From the NCBI GenBank assembly GCA_016192145.1, contig JACPUT010000008.1:186001-250000 (forward strand): DNA of 64,000 nucleotides. Direction: 5' to 3'. This document shows, piece by piece, positions 50,069 through 59,864 of the stretch (position 1 is the stretch's first letter; each line of letters starts with the position of its first letter). Under the pieces are notes generated by a model. The model was not told the DNA's origin. It saw only the letters and a list, made by a program, of their open reading frames with translations, and searched no databases. This DNA is from Acidobacteriota bacterium (GTDB lineage: Bacteria > Acidobacteriota > Holophagae > Holophagales > Holophagaceae). Made by a program: the position numbers and the translations under genes.

Positions 50069-50127
50069 TTGACCTAATCAATCGATTGATTAATCTGAGG
50101 TGGTCGCACTAATCAATCGATTGATTG
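50069..50127 (+). promoter_or_regulatory. Efflux operon promoter with two palindromic operators
   Basis: Two copies of the palindrome AATCAATCGATTGATT lie at 50076-50091 and 50111-50126, centres 35 bp apart. The first extends to the 18-bp palindrome TAATCAATCGATTGATTA. TTGACC (50069-50074) and TAATCT (50091-50096), 16 nt apart, form a -35/-10 pair around the first operator. The second operator ends 11 bp before the ATG of the TetR gene and directly abuts its GAGG ribosome site. These are the expected autoregulatory sites of the TetR protein. Confidence 0.8.
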
Positions 50128-50136
50128 AGGTCCTTG

Positions 50137-50805
50137 ATGAACGCAGAACCCGAACCCCGCAGTGATGTGAAGCAGCGCCTCGTGGAGGCGGCCACCCTGC
50201 TGTTCGCCCAGCACGGTTTCGATGGCGTGGGCATCCGCGAGATCGCCGCCGCCGCCGATGCGAATTCGGCCATGGTGGCCTACCACTTCGGGAGCAAGGA
50301 GGGCCTCTACCGGGCCGTGCTGCGGGCGGGCTTCGAAAAGGGCTGCGCGAAGGATCTGCCCCCGCCCCCCCAGGCGGATGCGCCCGAAGCCAAAATGGCT
50401 GCCCTGGCGGGGCTCAGGGCCCACATCGAGACCATGGCCTCCGATCTGAAGCTGGGAGAGCACACCTCTGGGTTGGACGAGGCCTTCATGGGCATCCTCA
50501 TGCGGGAGCTGGGGCGTGTGGACAGCCCCTACCTGCCGGAGTTGGATCGCGAATTCATGGCCGGCAAGTTCGAACAGCTCGCCGCCTGCCTCCGCATCCT
50601 CCGCCCCGGGCTCACGGAGGATCAGGTCATGTACCTCTGCGGCACCGTGAGCGGCCCGCTGCTGCTGTACCGCTTTATCCCCGGCGTCATCCGCCTCCGC
50701 ACGGGCGGCAAGCCCTTCCCCGAGGACCGCGAAGCCCTCTGCGCCTTCCTCTACGACCACACCCTGCGAGCCCTCGGCGTCTCGCCCGCCGACGCTGGAG
50801 CCTGA
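50137..50805 (+). CDS. TetR/AcrR-family transcriptional regulator (CecR-like C-terminal domain)
   Basis: A 222-residue repressor. The N-terminal helix-turn-helix is RLVEAATLLFAQHGFDGVGIREIAAAADANSAMVAYHFGSKEGLYRAVL. The C-terminal ligand domain resembles the CecR/YbiH (DUF1956) group (LMRELGRVDSPYLPELDREFMAGKFEQL). The ATG at 50137 follows GAGG by 6 nt. It is first in an operon with TolC, adaptor and RND pump (gaps 3, 23 and 3 bp) and is preceded by twin palindromes that it most likely binds. Confidence 0.93.
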   Translation: MNAEPEPRSDVKQRLVEAATLLFAQHGFDGVGIREIAAAADANSAMVAYHFGSKEGLYRAVLRAGFEKGCAKDLPPPPQADAPEAKMAALAGLRAHIETMASDLKLGEHTSGLDEAFMGILMRELGRVDSPYLPELDREFMAGKFEQLAACLRILRPGLTEDQVMYLCGTVSGPLLLYRFIPGVIRLRTGGKPFPEDREALCAFLYDHTLRALGVSPADAGA

Positions 50806-50808
50806 TCC

Positions 50809-52098
50809 ATGCTCATGATCCTGCCCGCCCTCGTGGCCCTCCAATCGCCCATCGCCCCGATCCGTGTCGATCTCCCCAGCGCCCTCTCCCGCGCCAGGGC
50901 CGAGAACGCCCTCCTGAAGGCCGCCGCGGCCCGGGTGGAGGAACGCCGCAGCTACATCACGACCGCCCGGGCCGACGCGCTGCCCCAGCTCACGGCCGTC
51001 GGCGATTTCACCCGCGCCCGCGACGTCTCCATCCTGAACAGCGGCTTCGCCGATAGCGCGGCGTCCTTCGGCATCTCCCCCAGCAACCTCGTGGGCGCCC
51101 GTTCCGTCTACACGACGCAGCTGAACCTCGTGCAGCCCATCTTCGCCTGGGGCAAGCTCTCGGGGGCCGTGGACGTGGCCAAGGTCGGCGAAGCCGAAGC
51201 CCGCGCCGCCTACACCACCGCCGAACTGGACATCCTCCACGGCGTCGCCAAGGCCTACCTGGGCGTGCTCCAGGCCCAGGCCCAGCTGGACGTGGTGAAG
51301 GTGAAGCTCGAAACGGCCACCAAGCTGCTCGAGGACATCCAGAACAAGCTTGAGGCCCAGAGCGCCACCCAGCTGGATCTGCTGCGCGCCCAGGCCGAGC
51401 TGCAGGGCGTGGCGCCCGAGGCCCTCCAAGCCCAGGCCAACCACCAGCGGGCCCTGGAGGTGCTGAACGGGCAGCTGGGCCTGGATCCCCGTACGCCCCT
51501 GGAGGTGGCTTCGCTGCCGCCCGCCGAGATCCCGGCGGACCTCAAGGGCGTCGATCGAAGCGAGCTGCTGCAGCTCCGCGAGCAGGAGAAGGGCTACCGG
51601 ATCAACGACCAGATCATCACCTCCGACCTGCGCCCCCGGCTGGATTTCTCGGCCAGCACGGGTTACCAGGCGGGCAAGACGGACAACCTCTTCAAGGAAC
51701 CCTATGACACCTGGCGCGTGAGCCTCACCCTGAAGGTGCCCATCTTCGATGGCCTCCGCACCAGCGGCAAGCGCGCCCAGAACCGGGCCGTGCTGGAGCA
51801 GATCAAGCAGAGCCGCGTGGATGTGGAGCGCCAAGTGCAGGTGCAGCAGGCCTCCGCCAAGCGGGAGGTGGGCAAGGCCCAGGCCTTCCAGGAGGCGGCC
51901 ACCAAGGCCCACGATGCGGGCCAGGAGGCGCTGCGCGTCAGCCGCGAATCCTTCGCCGAAGGCCTCATCAGCTCCCTGGATCTGCTCCAGGCCGAGCGCC
52001 AGGAACGCAACCTGGAGAGCCAGCGGGTGCAGGCGCAGCTGGCCGTCTGGTCCGCCCTCCTGGATCTGCGCCGCTCCCTCGGCCTCGCCCCCCTCTGA
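50809..52098 (+). CDS. TolC-family outer-membrane efflux protein
   Basis: A 429-residue outer-membrane factor with a short export signal (MLMILPALVALQSPIA). Two repeats of the TolC fold are visible: long helices such as AYLGVLQAQAQLDVVKVKLETATKLLEDIQ and SAKREVGKAQAFQEAATKAHDAG, and strands such as DALPQLTAVGDFTRARD and RPRLDFSASTGYQAG. No lipobox Cys is seen. It forms the exit channel for the RND pump encoded two genes downstream. Confidence 0.92.
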   Translation: MLMILPALVALQSPIAPIRVDLPSALSRARAENALLKAAAARVEERRSYITTARADALPQLTAVGDFTRARDVSILNSGFADSAASFGISPSNLVGARSVYTTQLNLVQPIFAWGKLSGAVDVAKVGEAEARAAYTTAELDILHGVAKAYLGVLQAQAQLDVVKVKLETATKLLEDIQNKLEAQSATQLDLLRAQAELQGVAPEALQAQANHQRALEVLNGQLGLDPRTPLEVASLPPAEIPADLKGVDRSELLQLREQEKGYRINDQIITSDLRPRLDFSASTGYQAGKTDNLFKEPYDTWRVSLTLKVPIFDGLRTSGKRAQNRAVLEQIKQSRVDVERQVQVQQASAKREVGKAQAFQEAATKAHDAGQEALRVSRESFAEGLISSLDLLQAERQERNLESQRVQAQLAVWSALLDLRRSLGLAPL

Positions 52099-52121
52099 TC
52101 ATCCGACATGAAAGGAACCCC

Positions 52122-53192
52122 ATGAACCGCAACGTGCTCATCTTCTCAGGCCTGGCCCTCGTGCTCGTCATCGGCGGATCCGCCACCTACCATCGGAGCC
52201 AGCGCAACGCCGAGCTGGCCCGGCAGCAGGTGGTGAAGGATGCCGCCGAGCTCTCCGTCAGCACCGTCGCCGTGGAGAACCGGAGTTTCCGCCCCAGCTT
52301 CGCCTTCACGGGCGACCTGCTCGCCGTGAACCGGGCGGAGCTTCGCGCCGAAGTGCCCGGCCGGGTCACGCGCGTCCTGGTGCAGGAGGGCGACTCCGTG
52401 AAAGGGGGCTCTCTCCTGAGCACCCAGGATGAGGATGATCTGGCCCTGGCACTGCGGGCCGCCGAGGCCCAGGCCGCGCAAGCCAAGGCCGATCACGATC
52501 GGGCCGAAACCCTGCTCGCCAAGCGCAGCATCACCAAGCAGGCGGCCCAGCAGGCGGAAACGATGTGGCAGACGGCCGACAGCCAGGCCGGAGTCGCCCG
52601 GGTGCGCTTGAAGAAGGCCCGCATCACCGCGCCCTTCGATGGCCAGGTGGCGCGCCGGACGATCCAGCCTGGGGACGTCATCAGTCCCGGCCAGCCCGTC
52701 TTCGAAGTGGTGGACAACCGGCGGATGGAAATCCAGGCGGACCTGCCCGCCGCCGCCGCCGCCGTGGTGAAGCCCGGCCAGACCATCCGTTTCCGGGTGG
52801 CCGGCTTCGATCGCCCCTTCGATGGCAAGGTCACCCAGGTGAGCCCCAGCCTCGGCCAGGACGGCCGCACCCTGAAGGTGCGCATGGAGGTGCCCAACCC
52901 GGAGCGCACGCTGAAGAGCGGCACCTTCGTGGAGGGCGAAATCCTGGGCGAGGGTGAACAGGCCCTGCCCGCCCTGCCCGCGACCCTCCTCAAGGCCGAA
53001 GGCCGCGAGGGCAAGCTGTGGCTGGCCTCCGGCGGCGTCGCCAAGGGCGTCACCGTCACCTTCGGGGTGGAGCAGGGGGGCTGGCGCGCCGTGAGCGGCC
53101 TCAATCCCGGCGATATCGTCGTGGCCGACGGCAAGGACCTGGTGAAGGAGGGCACTCGCCTGAAGCTCACTTCCATGGCGAAGGGGAACTGA
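52122..53192 (+). CDS. RND efflux periplasmic adaptor (membrane fusion protein)
   Basis: A 356-residue adaptor anchored by one N-terminal helix (VLIFSGLALVLVIGGSATY). It has the barrel-sandwich/lipoyl halves (VPGRVTRVLVQEGDSVKGGSLLS and ITAPFDGQVARRTIQPGDVISPGQPVFEVV), an alpha-hairpin between them, and a beta-barrel region (AAAAVVKPGQTIRFRVAGFDRPFDGKVTQVSP). It bridges the inner-membrane pump and the TolC channel. AAAGGAAC lies before the ATG. The pump gene follows after 3 bp. Confidence 0.94.
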   Translation: MNRNVLIFSGLALVLVIGGSATYHRSQRNAELARQQVVKDAAELSVSTVAVENRSFRPSFAFTGDLLAVNRAELRAEVPGRVTRVLVQEGDSVKGGSLLSTQDEDDLALALRAAEAQAAQAKADHDRAETLLAKRSITKQAAQQAETMWQTADSQAGVARVRLKKARITAPFDGQVARRTIQPGDVISPGQPVFEVVDNRRMEIQADLPAAAAAVVKPGQTIRFRVAGFDRPFDGKVTQVSPSLGQDGRTLKVRMEVPNPERTLKSGTFVEGEILGEGEQALPALPATLLKAEGREGKLWLASGGVAKGVTVTFGVEQGGWRAVSGLNPGDIVVADGKDLVKEGTRLKLTSMAKGN

Positions 53193-53195
53193 CCG

Positions 53196-56100
53196 ATGTT
53201 TTTGTCCGACTTCTCCATCCGGCGGCCCGTCTTCACCACCTGCATCATGCTGGCCCTCATGGTGCTGGGCCTCTTCAGCGTGAAGGGCCTGGGCATCGAT
53301 CAATACCCGAACACCGACATCCCCACGGTCACCGTCTCCATCGTCTATCCCGGGGCCAGCCCCGAGAGCGTCAAGCAGGACGTGATCAAGAAGATCGAGG
53401 AGGCCGTCAACCCCATCGAGAAGATCAAGGAGATCAGCTCCACGAGCCAGGAGTCCGTGGGCACGCTCATCATCCAGTTCCAGCTGGACCGCGACGTGGA
53501 CAAGGCCCTGGATGACGTGCGCACGCGCATCGGCCAGATCCGCCGCAACCTCCCCGACACCATCGAAGAGCCCGTCATCTCCAAGTTCGATCCGGCCCAG
53601 CTGCCCGTGCTCTCCCTCGTCGTGCGACCCGATGAGGCCCACGCCGGCAAGATCCGGGACAAGGAACTCACCCGCATCGCCGAGGACTTCCTCAAGCGCC
53701 GCCTCGAGAACGTGCCGGGCGTGGGCAAGGTGGACGTCGTCGGCGGCTCCACCCGCGAGATCCAGGTGCAGGTGGATCCCCAGAAGCTGGAATCCCTGGG
53801 CCTCTCCCTGGGCCAGGTCATGAACGCCGTGGGCGGCGACACCTCCGACGTGCCCAGCGGCAACCTGCTGCAGGGCAGCCGCGAAGTGGCCGTGAAGGTG
53901 GACGCCAAGGTCCGCACCGTGGAGGCCTACCGCAACGTCATCGTCGGCAACAAGCAGGGCCGCCCCATCGAACTGTGGGAAGTCGCCAACGTCGTGGATG
54001 GCGTGAAGGAGAAGCGCAGCCTCGCCCGCCTGGATGGCCAGGACGTGGTGGCCCTGGAAGTGCAGCGGCAGACGGGCGGCAACACCGTGGCCATGGTGGA
54101 GAGCGTCAACCAGGTGCTCAAGGTCCTGGAGCCCGAGCTCAAGGAGCAGGGCGTCACCCTCGTCACCGCCAAGGACAACGCCAAGTTCATCTCCGAGAGC
54201 GTGGAGGACGTGGAAGTCGCCATCTACCTGGGCGGCTTGCTGACCATCCTCATCGTCTTCTACTTCCTGAAGAGCTGGCGCTCCACGCTGATCACCAGCC
54301 TCACCCTGCCCGTGTCCATCGTGGGCACCTTCATCATCATGAAGGCGATGAACTTCACCCTGAACACGATGACCCTCATGGGGTTGTCCCTGGCGGTGGG
54401 CATCCTCATCGATGATGCCATCGTGGTCCGCGAGAACATCAGCCGCCACGCGGAGATGGGCAAGGACCACGTCACGGCGGCCCGGGAAGGCACGGCGGAG
54501 ATCGGGCAGGCGGTCATCGCCACCACCCTCTCCATCCTCGCCGTGTTCGTGCCCGTGGCCTTCATGGGCGGGATCGTGGGGCGCTTCTTCTTCCCCTTCG
54601 GCATCACGGTGGCCTTCGCCGTGGCCCTCTCGCTGTTCGTCAGCTTCACCCTCGACCCCATGCTCAGCGCCGTGTGGCCGGATCCCGAGCACGAGAAACA
54701 CGAGGAGTCCGACAAGCCCCGCCACCGCAACGCCATCATGCGCAGCGTGGATTCCTTCGGCCGCATGCTCGACGGCTGGGAGCTGACCTACGAAAAGATC
54801 ATCCGCTGGGCCCTGGCCCACCGGAAGGCCACCATGGCCATCGGTTTCGGAAGCTTCTTCCTGGCCATGGGGCTCTCCGGCCTCCTGGGCAACAACTTCA
54901 TGCCCGACTACGATCGCGGCGACCTCGCCGTCACTTTCAAGACGGCCCCGGGCGCCAGCCTCGAGGCCACCCAGGCCAAGGCCCTGGAGCTGGAGCTGCT
55001 CGTCAAGAAGACGGAAGGGGTGAGGCTCGCCTACACCACCATCGGCACGGGACTCTCCGGTTCCATCAACCAGGGCGGGATCTACGTGAAGCTCGAGGAA
55101 GGGAAGCGCCCCTCCCAGGTGCAGATCCGGCGGCACCTCCGCGAGGCCTTCCGCTCCGTGGCCGGCGTGGAGACCACCGTGGGCGCCGTGAACGACTTCG
55201 GCGCCGTGAGCCCCATCCAATTGGCCATCCAGGGTCCCGATCGGGCCGCCGTGCTCAAGGCGGAACCCATGGTGAAGGAGGCCCTGCGCCAGGTGCCCGG
55301 GGCCGTGGACATCCTCAGCTCCCTGGACCAGGGCAAGCCGGAGCTCCGCCTCGTGGTGGACCGCAAGGCCGCCTCGGATCTCGGCGTGTCCCCGGCCCTC
55401 GTGGCCCAGATGGTGCGCCCCCTCGTGGATGGCCGCGTCGTCGCCAAGTTCGAGGATGAAACGGGCGAGCAGCGCGACGTCCGCGTCCGCCTCTCCGATG
55501 CGGGTCGCCGCCTGGCCTCCCAGCTCTCCATGATCACCGTGCAGAGCACCAAGGATCTCGGCGGCGGCAAGCACCCCCTGATCCGCCTCAGCCAGGTGGC
55601 CCGCTTCGAGGAATCCATCGCGCCCGCCAAGATCCAGCGCCATGATCTGCAGGAGGAGATCGAGCTCGATGCGGGCTACGAAGGCTCCACCTTGGGTGAG
55701 GTGAGCGCCGGCGTCGCCGCGAAGGTGGTGGAGCTCCAGAAGTCCGGTCAGCTCCCCGAGGGCGTCCGCGTGGAGCCCCTGGGCCAGGCGCGCGACCAGG
55801 TGGAGACGGGCAAATACATGGGCGCCGCCCTGCTGCTCGCCGTGATCTTCATCTACTTCGTGCTGGCCAGCCAGTTCGAGAGCTTCAAGCTGCCCATCAC
55901 CATCATGCTGAGCCTCCCCCTCTCCATGGTGGGCATGGTGCTCATGCTGCTCGTGACGGGCGACTCGAACTCGATCATGACGAGCATCGGCCTCATCCTC
56001 CTTATGGGCCTCGTGACGAAGAACGCCATCCTGCTCGTGGACAACGCCATCCAGCATCGCAAGGACGGCATGGATCGCACCCAGGCTCTGGTCCACGCGG

Positions 56101-56366
56101 GCAAGACCCGACTCCGGCCCATCCTCATGACCACCTTCGCCATGATCTTCGGCATGCTGCCCCTCTTCTTCGCCTTGGGCAGCGGCGCCGAGATGCGGGC
56201 CCCCATGGCCCGGGCCGTGGTGGGCGGCATCATCACCTCCACGCTGCTCACGCTCATCGTGGTGCCCGTGTTCTACGAGATCCTGGATGACATGACCTGG
56301 CGGCGCCTGTTCACCTGGGCCAAGGGGTTCCTGCCTCGCCCCTCCCCGACGGAAGGCCAGTCATGA
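53196..56366 (+). CDS. RND-family efflux permease (HAE1-like, AcrB/MdtB type)
   Basis: A 1056-residue proton-driven exporter with twelve helices and two large periplasmic loops. The N-terminus is FLSDFSIRRPVFTTCIMLAL. The proton-relay Asp pair is in helix 4 (LSLAVGILIDDAIVVREN) and the relay Lys in LILLMGLVTKNAILLVDNAI. DPMLSAVWP and MGGIVGRFFFPFGITVA are family-typical. Likely substrates are hydrophobic toxic compounds, but sequence does not define them. The stop overlaps the start of the nitroreductase as ATGA. Confidence 0.96.
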   Translation: MFLSDFSIRRPVFTTCIMLALMVLGLFSVKGLGIDQYPNTDIPTVTVSIVYPGASPESVKQDVIKKIEEAVNPIEKIKEISSTSQESVGTLIIQFQLDRDVDKALDDVRTRIGQIRRNLPDTIEEPVISKFDPAQLPVLSLVVRPDEAHAGKIRDKELTRIAEDFLKRRLENVPGVGKVDVVGGSTREIQVQVDPQKLESLGLSLGQVMNAVGGDTSDVPSGNLLQGSREVAVKVDAKVRTVEAYRNVIVGNKQGRPIELWEVANVVDGVKEKRSLARLDGQDVVALEVQRQTGGNTVAMVESVNQVLKVLEPELKEQGVTLVTAKDNAKFISESVEDVEVAIYLGGLLTILIVFYFLKSWRSTLITSLTLPVSIVGTFIIMKAMNFTLNTMTLMGLSLAVGILIDDAIVVRENISRHAEMGKDHVTAAREGTAEIGQAVIATTLSILAVFVPVAFMGGIVGRFFFPFGITVAFAVALSLFVSFTLDPMLSAVWPDPEHEKHEESDKPRHRNAIMRSVDSFGRMLDGWELTYEKIIRWALAHRKATMAIGFGSFFLAMGLSGLLGNNFMPDYDRGDLAVTFKTAPGASLEATQAKALELELLVKKTEGVRLAYTTIGTGLSGSINQGGIYVKLEEGKRPSQVQIRRHLREAFRSVAGVETTVGAVNDFGAVSPIQLAIQGPDRAAVLKAEPMVKEALRQVPGAVDILSSLDQGKPELRLVVDRKAASDLGVSPALVAQMVRPLVDGRVVAKFEDETGEQRDVRVRLSDAGRRLASQLSMITVQSTKDLGGGKHPLIRLSQVARFEESIAPAKIQRHDLQEEIELDAGYEGSTLGEVSAGVAAKVVELQKSGQLPEGVRVEPLGQARDQVETGKYMGAALLLAVIFIYFVLASQFESFKLPITIMLSLPLSMVGMVLMLLVTGDSNSIMTSIGLILLMGLVTKNAILLVDNAIQHRKDGMDRTQALVHAGKTRLRPILMTTFAMIFGMLPLFFALGSGAEMRAPMARAVVGGIITSTLLTLIVVPVFYEILDDMTWRRLFTWAKGFLPRPSPTEGQS

Positions 56367-57494: not shown

Positions 57495-59864
57495 GTGGGC
57501 GAGTGGCTTGGGCGCTTCTTCGACAATTCCGAGTTCATGCCCCATGGGAAGTGTTGGTCGTGGGAACCCTGGGTGGTCTGGTCCAACGTCATCTCGGACG
57601 TGGTCATCACCCTCTCCTACCTCACCATCGGCGCCACCCTGTGGTGGTTCGTAAGGCGGAGGAGGGACTTGGCCTTCGATTGGATGTTCCTCATGTTCGC
57701 CACCTTCATCGTGGCGTGTGGCCTCACCCATGCCATGGAAGTCTTGAATACCTGGAACGGGTATTTCAGGATCGCGGGTGTCGTGAAGATCATCACCGCC
57801 ATCGCGAGCCTTCCCACGGCCCTCTTCCTCATCCGCATCATGCCCACCGCGTTGGGCCTTCCTACCCCTGAAGGGTTGGAACGGATCAACGACACGCTGA
57901 GGGAACGGGAAGCTGGGATGAGGTTGCTCGTGGAGAACGTGAAGGATTGCGCGATCTACATGGTCGACCCCCAAGGCCGCATCGCCGGTTGGAATCTTGG
58001 GGCGGAACGAATGTACGGGTATGGCGCGGAAGACATCCTAGGGCGCCCATTCGGGATGCTCTTCACCCCCGAAGATCAGGCTTCGGGGGTGCCTGAATGC
58101 TCCCTGGCTGCCGCCCGGGATGAAGGGCATTTCGAGGGTGAAGGGTGGCGGCTCAAGAAGGATGGCAGCCGGTTTTTCGCGGATGTCGTGCTGACACCGG
58201 CGAACCGGCCCGATGGGTCCTTGCAGGGGTTCGTCAAGGTGACCCGGGATATCACCGAACGGCAGGACATGCTGAAGCAGCTCGAGGCGCATCGGGACCT
58301 GTTGGAGAACACCGTCGCCGAGCGCACCCGCGAATTGAATGAAAGCCAGGAAATACTCCGGCTGATCTACGAATCGACGCAAGACCCCCTGATGCTGCTG
58401 AAGGCGCAACCCGACGGGCGGCTGGAGGTGGTGAGCTGCAACCAGGCCCAGGCCGCATTGGTAGATCGCTCGGCAGATGAATTGGCGGGCCAGCTGGTCG
58501 AGGGGGCCATCGCACCTCCTGCCGAGCCCCTGCTGGATGCATTGCAGGGGGTCATCAGGGATGGCAGGGAGCGGCGCTTGGAGCGGCATGCGGCGCTTCG
58601 GGATGGGGAGCGGGTCTTTGATTCACAGATCATCCCCATCAAGGATGGCCCCGGAGGGGATACGCATGTCCTGATCGCATCGCGGGATATCACGGAACGG
58701 AACCGGGTGGAGGAGGCGCTCCGCCAATCCCAGAAGTTGGAGAGCCTCGGCGTGCTCGCGGGTGGCATCGCCCACGATTTCAACAACCTACTTACCTCCA
58801 TTTTGGGTAATGCCAATTTGGGGACGATGGTGCTCCCCGTGGAAAGCCCTGGGCATGCCTACTTCGCTCAGATCGAAGAGGCTTCCCTTCGGGCAGCGGA
58901 TTTGACCCGGCAGCTGTTGGCCTACGCGGGAAAAGGGAATTTCGTCGTGGCCGAGGTGGATCTGAACCGCGTCGTGGCGGAGATGACCAAGCTCCTTGCC
59001 GTATCTATCTCCAAGAAGGCCGCCCTGCGGTTCGACTTGTCCGAAATCCAACCGAAGGTGCTGGGCGATCCGTCTCAGATTCAGCAGCTCATCATGAATC
59101 TGGTGACGAACGCCTCGGAGGCCATCGGTGAAGAGACCAGCGGCCTCATCACCATCCGAACCGGAATCCAGTTCCTGGACGAATCCTACGTCCAGCCATT
59201 GGCGCCAGCCTTCCCGCTTGAACCGGGCCTCTATGCCACGTTGGAGGTGAGTGACACGGGCTGCGGAATGAGCCTGGATACCCAGTCCAGGATCTTCGAC
59301 CCCTTCTACACCACAAAATTCACGGGCAGGGGTCTCGGGCTCTCCGCGATGACGGGTATCCTGCGTAGCCACCGGGGCAGCTTGAAGCTATACAGCGAAG
59401 TGGGCAAAGGCTCCACGTTCAAGCTTTTCCTCCCCGCCCTGGAAGCAACCCTGGAGCCTCATGCCGGCGAGGTGGAACAGCCGCCATGGCGGGGAACGGG
59501 GCAGATCCTGGTGGTGGATGATGAAGCCGCCGCCCGGTCCGTCGCGAGGCAAATGGCGGAAGGCCTGGGGTTCAAGGTATTGGAAGCCGTGGATGGGCGG
59601 GAAGCCGTCGAGGTCTTCAGGGCCCGGCATCGGGAACTCGTGCTCGTGCTCATGGATCTCACGATGCCGCACCTGGATGGAAGGGAGGCCTTCGCTCAGA
59701 TGCAGGCGATCGATTCCACCATCCCCGTGGTGCTCTGCAGCGGGTACAGCGAAATGGACGCGGCCCAGGCCTTTGTGGGGCGGGGATTGGCTGGTTTCAT
59801 CCAAAAACCGTACCGGTTCTCGGAACTCAGCTCGATCTTGCGGAAGGGGTTGGAAGGCCACTGA
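57495..59864 (+). CDS. Hybrid histidine kinase with ethylene-receptor-like membrane sensor
   Basis: A 789-residue sensor. Residues 25-130 form three helices matching the plant ETR1 ethylene-binding domain. Asp35 and Tyr42 (ISDVVITLSYL) and Cys75 and His79 (FIVACGLTHAME) have the same spacing as ETR1 Asp25, Tyr32, Cys65 and His69. ETR1 Pro36 is Gly here. Then come two PAS domains (about 150-275 and 300-415), a HisKA domain with the phospho-His in GIAHDFNNLLTSILG, an ATPase domain (NLVTNASEAI, DTGCGM, GRGLGLSAMTGI) and a C-terminal receiver with Asp in VLMDLTMPHLDG. GTG 57495 is chosen for its GGGGG site and for the typical FMPHG start region; TTG 57444 or ATG 57537 are alternatives. Confidence 0.88.
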   Translation: MGEWLGRFFDNSEFMPHGKCWSWEPWVVWSNVISDVVITLSYLTIGATLWWFVRRRRDLAFDWMFLMFATFIVACGLTHAMEVLNTWNGYFRIAGVVKIITAIASLPTALFLIRIMPTALGLPTPEGLERINDTLREREAGMRLLVENVKDCAIYMVDPQGRIAGWNLGAERMYGYGAEDILGRPFGMLFTPEDQASGVPECSLAAARDEGHFEGEGWRLKKDGSRFFADVVLTPANRPDGSLQGFVKVTRDITERQDMLKQLEAHRDLLENTVAERTRELNESQEILRLIYESTQDPLMLLKAQPDGRLEVVSCNQAQAALVDRSADELAGQLVEGAIAPPAEPLLDALQGVIRDGRERRLERHAALRDGERVFDSQIIPIKDGPGGDTHVLIASRDITERNRVEEALRQSQKLESLGVLAGGIAHDFNNLLTSILGNANLGTMVLPVESPGHAYFAQIEEASLRAADLTRQLLAYAGKGNFVVAEVDLNRVVAEMTKLLAVSISKKAALRFDLSEIQPKVLGDPSQIQQLIMNLVTNASEAIGEETSGLITIRTGIQFLDESYVQPLAPAFPLEPGLYATLEVSDTGCGMSLDTQSRIFDPFYTTKFTGRGLGLSAMTGILRSHRGSLKLYSEVGKGSTFKLFLPALEATLEPHAGEVEQPPWRGTGQILVVDDEAAARSVARQMAEGLGFKVLEAVDGREAVEVFRARHRELVLVLMDLTMPHLDGREAFAQMQAIDSTIPVVLCSGYSEMDAAQAFVGRGLAGFIQKPYRFSELSSILRKGLEGH

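Follow-up and report, generated by a model that had tools for sequence, protein, structure and literature searches.

Sensor kinase gene and its surroundings

The window (the whole stretch of DNA analysed, 64,000 nucleotides) carries a gene for a hybrid sensor histidine kinase, present in a single copy in the host genome. An ethylene-binding-type membrane domain, ETR1_N, forms the N-terminus of this long protein, which ends at position 59864. The main features of the locus are the following.

50125-56366, + strand: TetR-type regulator, then an RND efflux operon that is complete with outer membrane factor, HlyD-type fusion protein and AcrB-type pump; both lie upstream of the sensor
57495..59864, + strand: hybrid sensor histidine kinase gene, 789 aa (Pfam domains, motifs, starts of relatives)
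57495..57890, + strand: ETR1_N (ethylene-binding-type) membrane sensor domain (PF25487 match, AlphaFold2 model, hydropathy peaks)
57897..58710, + strand: two PAS domains, approximate extent (PAS_4 and PAS_9, two stretches each; TIGR00229 sensory_box, two stretches)
58770..59490, + strand: histidine kinase core with the phosphoacceptor motif AHDFNN (aa 426-431) and the N-box, G1 and G2 motifs (Pfam, motifs)
59500..59864, + strand: C-terminal receiver domain with the motif LMDLTMP at aa 719 (PF00072, E 2.2e-21)

The open reading frame may start at GTG 57495, giving 789 residues, or at TTG 57444, giving 806, and in both cases stops at 59864 on the + strand. The GTG appears to be the likelier start, because the relatives start at this position and a GGGGG run lies just 5' of it; the TTG is possible. 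The frame has no internal stops and a GC3 as high as 0.78; the other two frames contain 26 and 14 stops.

In the 806-aa frame read from the TTG, residues 44-138 match Pfam PF25487 (ETR1_N) with an E-value of 6.6e-31 (106.9 bits, for a cut-off of 27 bits). HATPase_c (E 2.4e-19) and Response_reg (PF00072, E 2.2e-21) are also above their cut-offs, and HisKA is slightly below (24.2 bits versus 26.9). All the motifs of a hybrid histidine kinase are intact: AHDFNN at 426, NLVTNA at 535, DTGCGM at 587, GRGLGL at 611 and LMDLTMP at 719. No photoreceptor domain was found by Pfam. On these matches, the protein encoded at 57495..59864 can be assigned firmly to the hybrid histidine kinases of the ethylene-receptor sensor family. 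That an unrelated membrane protein merely happens to have a few residues at the right spacing is thereby of negligible probability: such a resemblance would not give a whole-domain match at E 6.6e-31, and it is further ruled out by the placement of the protein in the tree and by the 36-54% identity of its sensor to 48 relatives, aligned over the whole domain.

The AlphaFold2 monomer model of the sensor alone (49 sequences) is confident, with a pLDDT of 90.1 and a pTM of 0.78. It has three transmembrane helices at the N-terminus (25-55, 62-87 and 91-119), in agreement with the hydropathy peaks. Neither the PDB sequence search nor the fold search returned a solved structure matching the sensor. 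AlphaFold models of an ETR1_N-type domain are reported to fit EPR distances imperfectly (PMC13012798).

The neighbours of the sensor gene in the window are the TetR-type regulator, the RND efflux operon, a nitroreductase-type open reading frame, a converging amidohydrolase and a transcription-repair coupling helicase. Those scanned include neither a response regulator nor an HPt gene, and none suggests ethylene metabolism. An operon link between the sensor and these genes was considered and dropped: they are not shared with the closest relative, locus L022 (described below), whose neighbours are unlike those of the window gene among the open reading frames scanned. Among the genes of the host genome are copper P-type ATPases, with two above the curated cut-off, which indicates that copper handling is present; the same holds for all of the control genomes in that search.

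Ligand-site residues

The sequence-only reading proposed that Asp35, Tyr42, Cys75 and His79 correspond to Asp25, Tyr32, Cys65 and His69 of ETR1 with a constant offset of 10, and that Gly46 occupies the position of Pro36. Both statements are borne out by the translation of 57495-57890 and by alignment with ETR1, in which the five residues fall in the columns D25, Y32, P36, C65 and H69.

57597..57599, + strand: Asp35 codon, ETR1 Asp25 (translation, ETR1 alignment)
57618..57620, + strand: Tyr42 codon, ETR1 Tyr32 (translation, ETR1 alignment)
57630..57632, + strand: Gly46 codon, ETR1 Pro36, the sole departure among seven binding residues (alignments)
57717..57719, + strand: Cys75 codon, ETR1 Cys65, copper ligand (translation, ETR1 alignment)
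57729..57731, + strand: His79 codon, ETR1 His69, copper ligand (translation, ETR1 alignment)
57786..57788, + strand: Lys98 codon, ETR1 Lys91, proposed partner of Asp25 (alignment; K98 of AzoEtr1 in PMC11819568)

Ile35 and Ile62 of ETR1 are likewise retained in the alignment, as Ile45 and Ile72. This leaves Pro36, replaced by Gly46, as the single exception among the seven residues that ETR1 requires; the other six are present. According to papers citing the primary work (Wang et al. 2006; Azhar et al. 2023), ethylene binding in ETR1 requires all seven, Pro36 included (PMC11819568, PMC6586836). The earlier suggestion that Gly46 may change the affinity is thus reasonable. Pro36 immediately adjoins the modelled ethylene sites of ETR1 (PMC6586836), and upon ethylene binding the Cu(I) bound to Cys65 and His69 shifts its coordination (PMC13012798). 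Of the broader proposal of an ethylene-receptor-like copper sensor, the family membership stands firmly and the copper ligands are kept; that the sensor depends on copper can fairly be inferred from these residues.

Comparison with known ethylene receptors

AzoEtr1 of Azospirillum brasilense has an ethylene-binding domain followed by a PAS domain and a histidine kinase, the same order as in the window protein, and its residues D35, C75, H79 and K98 carry identical numbers (PMC11819568). The residue pattern of the window protein is accordingly an ordinary one for bacterial members. AzoEtr1 has been shown to bind ethylene, with D35A and C75A used as predicted non-binders (PMC11819568). It retains all seven binding residues including Pro36 and is accompanied by a separate, adjoining response regulator gene, whereas the window protein has Gly at this position, a second PAS domain and a fused receiver. 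Homologues on Azospirillum plasmids are about 42% identical to the window sensor.

The PF25487 sensor is also common to SynEtr1 of Synechocystis and the other cyanobacterial receptors (PMC6682694). SynEtr1 is a receptor of both light and ethylene (PMC11819568); the window protein differs in the absence of a Pfam photoreceptor domain and in the Gly at Pro36. With plant ETR1 it shares the three-helix sensor, the residues equivalent to Asp25, Tyr32, Ile35, Ile62, Cys65, His69 and Lys91, and the C-terminal kinase and receiver, but it is bacterial and distant in sequence, has PAS domains instead of GAF and lacks Pro36.

Bacterial ethylene receptors are already established, and the window protein is a further member of a known family. 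The view that an ethylene sensor in a bacterium is notable in itself was overstated, as SynEtr1 and AzoEtr1 have been published as functional receptors (PMC11819568, PMC6682694) and the family extends over many phyla. Ethylene sensing by the window protein is plausible, and the change at Pro36 is its sole point of special interest.

Distribution of the sensor family

A scan of genome contigs with the window protein as the single query recovered no relatives; the same scan with a four-row alignment yielded 70 loci. The family is scattered over Cyanobacteria, Pseudomonadota, Bacteroidota, Myxococcota, Verrucomicrobiota and Acidobacteriota. A match is present in 6 of the 77 genomes of the window's own family, 9 of 93 in its class and 13 of 297 in the phylum sample. 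The corresponding phylum samples gave 15/237 genomes for the Myxococcota locus, 29/398 for the Teredinibacter locus, 16/247 for the Bacteroidota locus and 45/146 for the cyanobacterial locus. Many cyanobacterial genomes, including that of a Tolypothrix (G350), have multiple ETR1_N genes, with up to nine matches per genome. The phylum of the window is taken to be Acidobacteriota, since two loci from it, L003 and L004, match L029 (Acidobacteria MAG) and L033 (Blastocatellia MAG) exactly in the sensor core. A nucleotide search of the phage collection gave no matches. The window protein adds this patchy receptor to an acidobacterial family in which ethylene sensing is, as far as could be found, undescribed.

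Replacement of Pro36 and the nearest relative

We compared 177 distinct sequences. The Asp, Tyr, Cys and His residues are all kept in 143 of them, and 134 of these 143 have Pro36. The nine others (6%, a rough figure since the sequences come from profile and pattern searches and are not a random sample) have Ser (five sequences), Ala, Thr, Phe or, in the window protein alone, Gly.

The only close relative is L022 (genome G341), which belongs to a different genus within the bacterial family of the window. It has the same domain order, with one PAS region instead of two, and it also lacks Pro36, with Ala in this column and Thr in the Ile62 column. The pair is supported at 100/99, and at 98 in a tree from which the columns of Asp25, Pro36 and Lys91 had been left out. 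It lies near the acidobacterial receptors of the Pro36 type, with weak support for the deeper placement. The phylogenetic check called for by the sequence-only reading thus revealed no clustering with a family known for another ligand.

Gly is found at the ETR1 Ala29 column in nine of 13 non-Pro members versus eight of 144 Pro members. The window protein has Thr and L022 Ala in this column, which hints that their lineage may have lost Pro36 separately from many of the other non-Pro members. The best trees require three to four changes at Pro36, but a tree that unites all the non-Pro rows is not rejected by the AU test (p 0.39). The same column bears on the rather unlikely explanation that the sensor, its copper site kept, now answers to a different small ligand (for instance CO, acetylene, an isocyanide or copper itself), with the change at Pro36 as part of the shift. 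The preservation of Cys/His and Asp/Lys while Pro36 varies (9/143 non-Pro) fits such retuning, and the Gly-rich Ala29 column points to a remodelled helix 1 in part of the group; the window protein, with its Thr, does not follow this pattern and is nearest to receptors of the Pro36 type. Moreover, to our knowledge only ethylene-like ligands have been established for ETR1_N-type domains.

The window protein and L022 are 50% identical in the sensor and 43% in the kinase-receiver part. The higher conservation of the sensor indicates that it is under selection, which is difficult to reconcile with a degenerate sensor that folds and may bind copper but is deaf to the gas, the protein responding through its PAS domains. 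The remaining key residues are retained together with Lys91, which would be unexpected in a decaying domain. Degeneration would agree with the requirement for Pro36 in ETR1 stated in the citing papers, with the further relaxation of L022 (I62T) and with the presence of two PAS domains that could sense in place of the membrane domain. In an ethylene receptor of tomato, the first-helix Pro-to-Leu change P51L (Sletr1-1) causes complete ethylene insensitivity (PMC9911886), and P51 is presumably the equivalent of ETR1 Pro36. On balance, we regard a degenerate sensor as improbable.

Proposed function

The preferred explanation, to which we assign a probability of roughly 0.55, is that the window protein is a bacterial ethylene-receptor family member acting as a Cu(I) sensor whose small pi-ligand is most likely ethylene, bound with altered affinity, and feeding a PAS-kinase-receiver module. 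In its favour are the ETR1_N profile match, six of the seven binding residues together with Lys91, the intact kinase and receiver, the confident three-helix model, the position in the tree, the copper P-type ATPases of the host and the precedent of AzoEtr1; the Gly at Pro36, the Ala36 and Thr62 of L022 and the lack of a telling neighbour gene count against it.

In the proposed mechanism, the three-helix membrane sensor would be a dimer in which Cys75 and His79 hold Cu(I) and Lys98 positions Asp35. Binding of the small pi-ligand would rearrange the copper site, and this would change how active the cytoplasmic PAS-kinase-receiver module is. The histidine of AHDFNN would then hand its phosphate to the fused receiver, from which it would reach unlinked partners.

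The Gly at Pro36 would probably alter the affinity for ethylene, in the direction of weaker binding; a reduction is the leading guess because Gly46 is expected to alter helix 1 beside the pocket. The combination of Ala36 and Thr62 in L022 suggests that the constraint on the ligand pocket was relaxed or shifted in the lineage of this pair. It is conceivable, though doubtful, that by swapping the near-universal Pro36 while keeping the copper site, this lineage moved to another affinity range or another gaseous ligand. Variants that occur in nature at a residue regarded as essential offer a cheap test of its role, and a comparison of copper and ethylene binding by the window protein and L022 with that by AzoEtr1 would tell whether affinity, choice of ligand or only folding depends on Pro36.

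Other ETR1_N variants

Four loci of the same phylum (L011, L013, L015 and L017) match ETR1_N without Tyr32 or the Cys/His copper ligands; judged by these residues, ETR1-type binding of ethylene through copper is unlikely for them. The bacterial family of the window contains a second, distinct ETR1_N group (L018-L021), with Pro36, Cys65 and His69 but Asn25. Its members have very long open frames (1462-1947 aa) and are without the PHGHC-type N-terminal motif.

Asn25 is found in this group, in L148 and in others. An Asp-to-Asn change in a receptor is reported to lower affinity about 100-fold (PMC13012798). Lys91 is absent in 12 of 14 sequences with Asn25 but in only 16 of 143 with Asp25 (Fisher p 7e-9, kinship ignored; independent pairs are few), a covariation that fits the proposed Asp25-Lys91 salt bridge. 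In five sequences, Asn25 is combined with Asp91.
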